Position numbers and translations under genes: made by a program
Source: Sphaerochaeta globosa str. Buddy
Lineage (GTDB): Bacteria; Spirochaetota; Spirochaetia; Sphaerochaetales; Sphaerochaetaceae
Direction of reading: 5' to 3'
DNA: 64,000 bases
Assembly (NCBI RefSeq): GCF_000190435.1
Contig: NC_015152.1
Coordinates: 564,458-628,457 of the forward strand
Notes under the pieces: generated by a model
Told to the model about the DNA's origin: nothing
Databases searched by the model: none
Seen by the model: the letters and a program-made list of their open reading frames with translations, nothing else
In this document: one piece after another, positions 40,641 through 43,495 of the stretch
Position numbering within the stretch: position 1 is the stretch's first letter
Layout: each line of letters opens with the position of its first letter

Positions 40641-41264
40641 ATGTTCGATCCGTTTACCCATGATGAGCAAAAGGAAACGAGCCAACTGATGTGGAAGTCC
40701 GGAAAGCGGGAGCTGGTATTCAAAGGTCCCATTTTCGATATCTGTACCGTCCAGAGGACCAGCAATGATGGCCGCTGTTCTACGTTTATCGAAGTTGACT
40801 GTCAAAAATGGGTAACGATTGTTCCTTGGTTTCGTAACGCAGACGGTGTGCCGATGTTTGTCATGGTGGATCAGTTCCGCCATGGCTCGGCTACCGTTAC
40901 CCGCGAGTTTCCCGCCGGAGTGGTGGAAAAGGGTGAAGATCCCATGGATGCAGGCCTCAGGGAACTGAAGGAAGAGACGGGATTGGAGGGTGAGAGGGTG
41001 ACTGCCTTAGGCAATGTCAGCCCCAACTCGGCTTTCATGAACAATCGTTCCTACTTCTATTTGGTTGAGGATGTGAAGCACACCAGTGGCCAGGAGCTCG
41101 ATCCGAATGAGCAACTCGAGGTACTCTCCGTTCCTGTACAGACCGTAATCGAGCTGATGGGAACAGGTATCTATGACAACGGAATTATGATGATTGCCTT
41201 GGGTTACTTCCTGAGGGAAGCAAATAAGAGGCCTGAGTTGGTGACATCCACCAGTAAGGAGTGA
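40641..41264 (+). CDS. NUDIX hydrolase (ADP-ribose pyrophosphatase-like)
   Basis: About 207 residues. The Nudix box GEDPMDAGLRELKEETGLEGE (split as GEDPMDAG and LRELKEETGLEGE) near residue 98 has the REx2EE core. The surrounding fold resembles nucleotide-sugar pyrophosphatases such as ADP-ribose pyrophosphatase. The start is fixed by AAAGGAG 7 bases upstream. Middle gene of mrp-nudix-SIMPL. Confidence 0.88.
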   Translation: MFDPFTHDEQKETSQLMWKSGKRELVFKGPIFDICTVQRTSNDGRCSTFIEVDCQKWVTIVPWFRNADGVPMFVMVDQFRHGSATVTREFPAGVVEKGEDPMDAGLRELKEETGLEGERVTALGNVSPNSAFMNNRSYFYLVEDVKHTSGQELDPNEQLEVLSVPVQTVIELMGTGIYDNGIMMIALGYFLREANKRPELVTSTSKE

Positions 41265-41268
41265 GTAC

Positions 41269-41979
41269 ATGAAACAGAAACGAATCGCGGTGTTTGGTTT
41301 GTTGGTTGCGGTGGTATTGCTGCTTACTTCCTGCATGTCCAGCAAGGACTTGGTACGAACCATAGAGGTGTCGGCAACCGGGGAAGTAATGCTTACTCCC
41401 GATATTGCTTCGTTCTCCATTCAGGTAAGCGAACTTGGCAAGACTACCAGCGAAGCACAAGCCTTTGCCAATGAGAAAATGGCTCAGCTTCTTTCTATCA
41501 TGCGAGAGAATGGTGTGGAGGAGAAAGATATCAAGACTACCATGCTCAACCTGAGGCCCAGCTACCAGTGGATCGAGGGCAAGCAATTTCTGGAGGGCCA
41601 AGTTGCCAGCCAGAGTCTTTCAGTGACGCTGCGCAATCTTGATAAGCTGGGAAGCATGATCGACCAGCTTGGAGAGGTGAGTGGCATATACCTGAACTCG
41701 GTTATGTTGGATAAAGAAGACAAGTCTATCGGTCTTGAACAGGCGCGTCAGCAGGCTGTCCAGAAGGCGTTGGCCAAGGCTGAGCTCTATGCCCAAGGTG
41801 CACAGATGCAGGTGGGGAAACCAATTACCATCAGTGAATACACCGCTGCCTCCAACCCGTACAATACCCGTATGAAGGTGGCGATGGCCAGCGAGTCAGC
41901 CTATGACATGGCTACGGAAATCCCCGCAGGCACCATGACGGTCACTTCCACGGTTTCCATGGTCCTTGAAATGTATTGA
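41269..41979 (+). CDS. SIMPL (DUF541) domain lipoprotein
   Basis: 236 residues. The signal sequence ends in a lipobox LLTSC, so the mature protein should be lipid-anchored at Cys22. The body matches the SIMPL family: TIEVSATGEVMLTPDIASFSI near 31, then KDIKTTMLNLRPSYQW near 86. The family is periplasmic or outer-membrane linked, with roles in stress tolerance suggested but unclear. Starts 4 bases after the nudix stop. Confidence 0.88.
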   Translation: MKQKRIAVFGLLVAVVLLLTSCMSSKDLVRTIEVSATGEVMLTPDIASFSIQVSELGKTTSEAQAFANEKMAQLLSIMRENGVEEKDIKTTMLNLRPSYQWIEGKQFLEGQVASQSLSVTLRNLDKLGSMIDQLGEVSGIYLNSVMLDKEDKSIGLEQARQQAVQKALAKAELYAQGAQMQVGKPITISEYTAASNPYNTRMKVAMASESAYDMATEIPAGTMTVTSTVSMVLEMY

Positions 41980-42034: not shown

Positions 42035-42063
42035 TTAACAGAACCAGCAATTACTGGTATAGT
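42035..42063 (+). promoter_or_regulatory. strong promoter in the long intergenic region
   Basis: TTAACA (42035-42040), exact 17-base spacer, TATAGT (42058-42063). No gene follows within 300 bases; a structured RNA candidate with its own terminator does. Confidence 0.75.
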
Positions 42064-42069
42064 GTAAAT

Positions 42070-42220
42070 GTCCGAACGGCTGGGCGATTGACTTATGTCA
42101 TGAATTGCCCACCGTATGTCCTGTTGTTTTTTTCCCCCTCATACTCTGAGGTAACGGCAGGTACATTCCCGCGCTATAGCGGAACTCCTTCAAGGGTGCA
42201 AGCTTGAGGGAGTTTTTTTT
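42070..42220 (+). ncRNA. candidate structured non-coding RNA, about 150 nt, unknown class
   Basis: The segment runs from a near-consensus promoter to a strong terminator and contains no supported reading frame. Pairing seen by eye: hairpin 1 at 42076-42115 (ACGG with CCGT enclosing GGGCGATT with AATTGCCC); a second stem joining ATGTCCTGTTG (42116-42126) with CGGCAGGTACAT (42155-42166), enclosing CCTCA/TGAGG; hairpin 3 CCGC/GCGG (42169-42182); then the terminator. It does not match 6S, SRP, tmRNA, RNase P or a riboswitch I know. The 421-base region 41980-42400 otherwise holds only promoter-like AT-rich sequence. Confidence 0.65.
42183..42220 (+). terminator. rho-independent terminator of the RNA candidate
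   Basis: AACTCCTTCAAG pairs with CTTGAGGGAGTT (one G-U), followed by a run of T to 42220. Confidence 0.9.
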
Positions 42221-42400: not shown

Positions 42401-43495
42401 ATGTTCAAAAGGAAAATATTGCTGTTGGTGATGATGCTATGTTGTGTTGCCACCGCCTACTCAGCAATTACTGCAACCTATACCCCTCAACCTTCCTTGG
42501 TGTTCAAATTGGGCCCTGATATCCAGACTGCAAATACTCCAGCAGGTTCGTTTGGGTCCGATAAATTGGTTGCACATATCGGTACTCTTTCAATTTCTTT
42601 TGAGGCAGAAGACCAATTCAGACGTCCCTATCTTGATACAAGTGGCTTCAGCCGTCCTTACTATTTCAGGGGCATATTCAATACCTGGGGTGGCGGGTAG
42701 CAGAACACGGAGTTTTATATCCATGCCAATACTTCTCTCAGCTCCAGTCCCTTTGCTTTGTGGTTGGAAAATGGATCGGAAGCTCTCGCAGGGGACAGCG
42801 AGTCAGTTCTTACCGTCAGCCCGTTTGTTGTCGATTTCTTTTTTGTCAGCCATCATGACGCTCAGTACTATCAGGTAGGAGCCAGCTATCAGATGGTAAG
42901 TGGGAGTCTTGGAACATTTCAGGTCACTCGGCTCATTGTCCCACCTGATAACGGGACGCGGACTACCATAGATGTGCCGGTATCGCATCCTGCAAATCTC
43001 TCGCCGAATGAGCCGATACCGATTATTGGAAATTCTACAGAAGTAGTAGTTCCGCCTTCCATCCCCTATGGTAGTACAACACCACCGCCCCCACCGCCTC
43101 CTGAGCACTATTTGTTTTCAATTGCGGATGAAAGAAGCTTTTCGATCGATGAAGCTTATGGGATCAAGCAAGTGGATATTGCAACCTGCCAGCTTACCTT
43201 GCAGAATGTGCATGGAAACAACAAGAAGGTCTACATCAAGTTCTCCAGTACTTCCTATGTAGATGGTTTCCGTCTGCACTTAACAAACCCCCCGGGCGTC
43301 TATGTCATTCCCTATTCACTCTACTTTCTTGGAGAGGAAGTCGTGAGCGGACAGGATATTCTTTGGACTCAATTAATCAATGGACTGAATCAGCAGCCCA
43401 TCAGTGTGGGCGCCATCAATTCGACGACTGCAGAAATGGCTCCATCCGGGGAGTATAAGGACATCATTACCGTAGAAGTCAGGCCATATCACTAA
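42401..43495 (+). pseudogene. exported protein of unknown function interrupted by one in-frame TAG
   Basis: Reading from ATG 42401 gives a signal peptide (MFKRKILLLVMMLCCVATAYS) and about 99 residues, then a TAG at 42698-42700. The same frame continues without any other stop to 43495, giving about 364 residues in total. The sequence on both sides reads as one protein (FNTWGGG, stop, QNTEFYIHANTSL). A proline-rich linker (TTPPPPPPPEHY) lies around 43080-43110, and strand-rich segments flank it. No family is recognised. One base change explains the break; sequencing error, recent pseudogenisation or stop readthrough cannot be told apart here. Confidence 0.75.

Follow-up and report, generated by a model that had tools for sequence, protein, structure and literature searches.

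The window analysed here comprises 64,000 nucleotides of Sphaerochaeta globosa str. Buddy (positions 564458-628457 of the 3.316-Mb single-contig genome). A NUDIX hydrolase gene and a gene for a SIMPL (DUF541) protein are followed on the same strand by a predicted small RNA, which is preceded by a sigma-70-type promoter and ends in an intrinsic terminator (Table 1). The NUDIX and SIMPL genes (40641-41979) form a gene pair that is conserved at homologous loci in several Sphaerochaetaceae genera. The gene downstream of the RNA (42402-43495, forward strand) is split by an in-frame TAG at 42698-42700. Homologues in relatives (e.g., L004 and L018) span about 360-376 amino acids without such an interruption, so the gene appears to be a pseudogene for a secreted protein here. 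Further downstream, the segment 43735-44363 of the forward strand encodes a Phd/YefM antitoxin (PF02604) and then a Fic/Doc protein (PF02661), which together make up a typical phd-doc toxin-antitoxin pair.

Table 1 Predicted features of the small RNA locus, in window coordinates.
Feature	Position	Strand	Remarks
NUDIX hydrolase (PF00293)	40641-41264	+	Conserved upstream neighbour
SIMPL / DUF541 protein (PF04402)	41269-41979	+	Conserved upstream neighbour
Sigma-70-type promoter	42035-42063	+	TTAACA-N17-TATAGT; hexamers kept in nearly all genus members
Small RNA, ~150 nt	42069-42220	+	Fold z -6.2, homologues, covariance models
5' single-stranded tail UGUCCGA	42069-42075	+	Conserved in genus; UGUCYG in several other genera
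Hairpin 1	42076-42115	+	Sequence and size variable; pairs covary
Hairpin 2	42116-42166	+	13-pair stem, one bulged U, unpaired U/C tract on 5' side
Unpaired UUUUUCCC tract of hairpin 2	42129-42136	+	Flanked by CC; proposed main seed
Apical CCUC/GAGG small hairpin enclosed by hairpin 2	42137-42151	+	
Hairpin 3, CCGC/GCGG	42169-42182	+	Other paired sequences replace it in Pleomorphochaeta
Hairpin 4, intrinsic terminator	42183-42220	+	12-pair stem, 8-base loop (hairpin 42183-42214), U run
Terminator loop GGUGCAAG	42195-42202	+	UGCAAG in every homologue examined

The promoter combines a -35 hexamer at 42035-42040 with a -10 hexamer at 42058-42063 across a spacer of 17 nucleotides, and a TG is found at 42055-42056, before the -10 hexamer. 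The predicted 5' end of the RNA falls at 42069-42071 and its 3' end within the U run that follows the terminator stem-loop (42181-42216). The region contains three promoter-like sites versus 1.7 expected by chance and two terminator-like sites versus 1.3 expected, so such consensus matches alone prove nothing. In the alignment across the genus, however, the promoter hexamers are conserved while the spacer varies, as does the sequence ahead of the promoter and beyond the U run. Conserved hexamers and a conserved RNA set between variable segments represent the pattern of an independent gene. The ORF list of the segment contains no frame of at least 40 amino acids inside the RNA. The initial annotation, which had proposed this promoter, a strong U-tract terminator and a segment of about 150 bases without coding potential, was borne out on each point at the sequence level, and its boundaries were right to within a few bases.

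The folding energy of the RNA amounts to -64.6 kcal/mol, compared to -40.7 ± 3.8 kcal/mol for shuffled sequences (z = -6.2), and none of 200 shuffles was as stable. The computed fold consists of exactly four hairpins, the number claimed beforehand; a 13-pair stem with a bulge and a stem enclosing a hairpin, both part of the same claim, can each be read as hairpin 2. Minimum-energy folds of single homologues showed the same arrangement in nearly all cases. Because of their differing arm lengths, hairpins 1 and 2 were not predicted by RNAalifold from a plain MAFFT alignment, whereas folds computed per sequence recovered both. In Pleomorphochaeta-type genomes (L061-L064), hairpin 1 is enlarged by a U-rich insert, with CAGUGGG...CCCACUG enclosing UUUUUAGUUUUUUUGUUC.

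The stems also passed the check for compensatory changes that had been suggested with the initial annotation. In an alignment of 17 sequences, 16 of the 44 pairs showed changes on both sides, as opposed to 6.6 ± 1.9 in shuffled controls (0/500) and to 2-7 pairs when the partners were slid against each other. Overall, 90.4% of the cells in this alignment pair versus 33-48% upon sliding, a percentage that is favoured by the structure having been chosen partly from the aligned sequences. A wider alignment of the core (21 sequences) contained 46 double-change cells in comparison to 13.6 ± 3.3. The double changes, taken together with the independent folds of single sequences, are stronger evidence than the percentage paired. 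Two marks of a trans-encoded sRNA are found here, namely a conserved structure with compensatory change and, at the sequence level, a discrete non-coding gene that has a promoter and an intrinsic terminator of its own.

By Blast, most of the genus genomes and one other genus were found to contain the segment. Both hexamers, the starting UGUCC, the U/C tract, GAGG, hairpin 3 and the terminator are all conserved among the aligned homologues. A covariance model built from 17 sequences matched 31 of 139 family genomes, including 20 of the 26 in the genus, and placed the RNA in genera g4, g11, g41 (Pleomorphochaeta) and g43 as well. Except for one apparent assembly duplicate, each genome carries a single locus. 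One additional g11 copy was recovered by a scan beside the NUDIX gene; within 1.5 kb of that gene, the RNA was not detected in about a dozen other family genera that have NUDIX. Six genus genomes gave no match. In three of these (81-86% complete), the adjacent NUDIX gene is missing as well; the remaining three have a contig that stops before the site. Judged from these assemblies, the RNA is seemingly kept in every Sphaerochaeta genome in which the site was assembled. A core model run over 393 genomes of the class returned the same set and, elsewhere, weak and chance-like matches alone; those in G361, G380 and G425 and at a second site in G132 lack the conserved motifs and were taken as chance. 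Named records with the same RNA belong to Sphaerochaeta, Pleomorphochaeta and unclassified spirochaete bins. Hits of the pattern UUUUCCCCCUC...UGCAAG outside the spirochaetes (Grimontia, Rhizobium and others) and in one spirochaete bin were dismissed on unconvincing model scores. The terminator-loop motif was also considered as a genome repeat and rejected, the genome holding only one exact copy.

No family of Rfam 15 (4227 families) matched the window at gathering cut-offs, and 12 loci, most of them homologues from other genera, gave no match at E ≤ 1. The statement that the RNA belongs to no known family accordingly holds for the window and for distant homologues. A literature search found no publication on this RNA or on Sphaerochaeta sRNAs. 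With covarying stems, conserved hexamers and a silent Rfam, the proposal of an unannotated sRNA that has a promoter and a terminator of its own is supported at the sequence level by comparative analysis, and the RNA is a predicted new family in the Sphaerochaetaceae, though of a known kind, the sRNAs. A review lists 6 distinct annotated sRNAs for Spirochaetes as compared to 345 for Proteobacteria (PMC9029176, Table 1). The RNA described here extends that short list by one family, which is strongly supported by comparison and comes with a covariance model.

The order NUDIX - SIMPL - RNA on one strand is retained in most copies, also in other genera; the g11 copies adjoin NUDIX without SIMPL. 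This synteny would fit an RNA that is primarily the 3' UTR and terminator of a NUDIX-SIMPL operon, where it would protect the mRNA end and possibly be released as an sRNA, with the promoter being secondary. A scan from 41500 revealed no separate terminator between the end of the SIMPL gene (41979) and the RNA, so read-through into the RNA is likely, and the RNA may also serve as terminator or 3' UTR of the operon. As the primary role, however, we consider this improbable. Promoter hexamers are conserved directly before the RNA while conservation is lost between SIMPL and the promoter, and neither hairpins 1-3 nor a fixed loop would be needed for a mere terminator. Moreover, the Pleomorphochaeta copies are located among unrelated genes (GGDEF-like, AraC-like and oxidoreductase-like upon inspection of translations), some of them on the opposite strand, which points to the RNA being a gene of its own.

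On its other side, the RNA has no neighbour that is widely shared among the copies. The terminator lies about 186 bases ahead of the next start codon, a spacing compatible with attenuation by a cis-acting leader or riboswitch-like element. Such an attenuator is very unlikely: it is largely refuted by the missing downstream synteny, the downstream gene being not conserved and often on the other strand, and neither a conserved alternative antiterminator pairing nor an Rfam riboswitch match was seen. The predicted 5' end could also be read as a short leaderless mini-gene (ATG TCC GAA CGG ...) or as part of a dual-function RNA, given that ATG, GTG or TTG is found there in most copies. We give this reading hardly any credence, since indels break the frame after 3-4 codons, the resulting lengths range from 6 to 18 codons with no preserved frame, one genus has CTG and another lacks the motif.

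Within the conserved structure, two unpaired sequences stand out. The UUU-CCCC of hairpin 2 is retained in all homologues examined while the stems change, and in genus g11 it sits in a plain hairpin loop. Similarly, the UGCAAG loop of the terminator is unchanged in every homologue examined although its stem varies. Divergent copies use another terminator stem (CCUGUCG/UGACAGG), yet display the same UGCAAG and UUUUCCCC loops. Termination by itself does not call for a given loop sequence, and we infer that the UGCAAG loop is under selection for something else.

The promoter, the four-helix structure, the terminator, the compensatory changes and the independence of neighbouring genes can all be read from the compared genomes. 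For the function, the combination of a stand-alone gene, a C-rich tract held in a loop and a second fixed loop makes a base-pairing sRNA acting in trans the most likely choice. We therefore favour, with somewhat better than even confidence, a family of single-copy, independently transcribed, non-coding sRNAs of ~150 nt that act in trans through base pairing. In hairpin 2, the exposed U/C tract UUUUUCCC would pair with purine-rich, G-rich mRNA stretches resembling Shine-Dalgarno sequences and thereby keep ribosomes from binding. Additional pairing sites or protein contacts may be provided by the invariant UGCAAG loop of the terminator and by the 5' tail UGUCCGA.

Such pairing would probably be Hfq-free. 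Over the whole genome, no Hfq (PF17209) exceeded the Pfam cut-off; the best score was 14.8 bits, inside a 472-amino-acid frame, against a cut-off of 27, although a very divergent Hfq may escape this search. As a control, the same search detected Hfq in E. coli and B. subtilis. The Hfq gene expected alongside an Hfq-dependent sRNA was accordingly not found, and pairing would depend on structured seeds presented in loops. Through this RNA, sRNA regulation in spirochaetes apparently without Hfq becomes accessible to testing.

Comparable designs have been described in other bacteria. In S. aureus, unpaired C-rich motifs pair with ribosome-binding sites (PMC3861533). The Rsa-type sRNAs and RNAIII of this species (loop UCCC motifs) carry an unpaired C-rich motif in a conserved hairpin, suited to Shine-Dalgarno pairing (PMC3861533). 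These RNAs belong to another phylum, however, and share no Rfam sequence or structure match with the Sphaerochaeta RNA, which differs further in that its U tract is longer and lies in an asymmetric internal loop, and in that its terminator has the second fixed loop UGCAAG. RepG of H. pylori pairs with a G-rich mRNA leader via a C/U-rich loop, and its terminator loop is a working part (PMC8295292); in the Sphaerochaeta RNA, the equivalent use of the tract is putative. Whereas the C/U-rich loop of RepG is the terminator loop itself, the C/U tract of the Sphaerochaeta RNA lies in hairpin 2 and the terminator loop reads UGCAAG.

Candidate targets were sought by complementarity. The longest complement, the 11-base GAGGGGGAAAA, was not enriched over the backward control; it occurs at two other sites in the genome, both antisense inside genes. 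The sequence GGGGGAAA was present shortly before an ATG 18 times in the own genome, compared to 9 times for the backward control, and more often elsewhere, an excess to be expected from Shine-Dalgarno sequences alone. Sites of this kind recurred at the start of an ABC-transporter permease, at glgC and at one position that could not clearly be assigned to a gene start. The permease site overlaps the upstream coding frame, which may explain its conservation. At glgC, the best recurrent site, UAAGGGGGAAAU before the start is kept in about half of the genus; elsewhere in the genus the leader reads GGGAGAAA, AGGAGA or GGGGGGUUUU, including members that have the RNA, and for this reason we do not claim glgC as a target.

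The main rival to base pairing is recognition of the fixed loops by protein. The RNA could bind protein or serve a housekeeping role, be it as a 6S-like or chaperone-like RNA or as a sponge for an RNA-binding protein; UUU-CCCC and UGCAAG would then represent protein contacts rather than seeds. Fixed loops on covarying stems, in a single copy that is near-universal in the genus, fit a structural RNA; such loops suit protein recognition as well as base pairing, and the target searches yielded nothing firm. On the other hand, the RNA has no Rfam match and, in contrast to housekeeping RNAs, is confined to some genera of a single family, and a 6S candidate and the SRP RNA are encoded elsewhere in the genome. 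Taken together, we regard this explanation as unlikely, if still credible. A further reading, a new class of structural RNA that is not a base-pairing regulator but a global RNA cofactor in Hfq-less spirochaetes, with an unknown RNA-binding protein recognizing UUU-CCCC and UGCAAG, appears doubtful to us.

Two known housekeeping RNAs were considered by name and rejected. The bacterial small SRP RNA (RF00169) scored 72.1 bits at C1:3286743-3286841 and not at the locus studied here. 6S RNA (RF00013) resembles the Sphaerochaeta RNA in being of similar length, stand-alone and broadly kept, but the latter does not match its covariance model, and 6S RNA forms one long rod with a central bubble instead of four hairpins. 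The sole 6S-like locus of the genome, G000:C1:2063545-2063733 (L032), reached 41.5 bits, just under the Rfam cut-off of 46.4, and may represent a divergent 6S RNA of spirochaetes that escapes the Rfam model.
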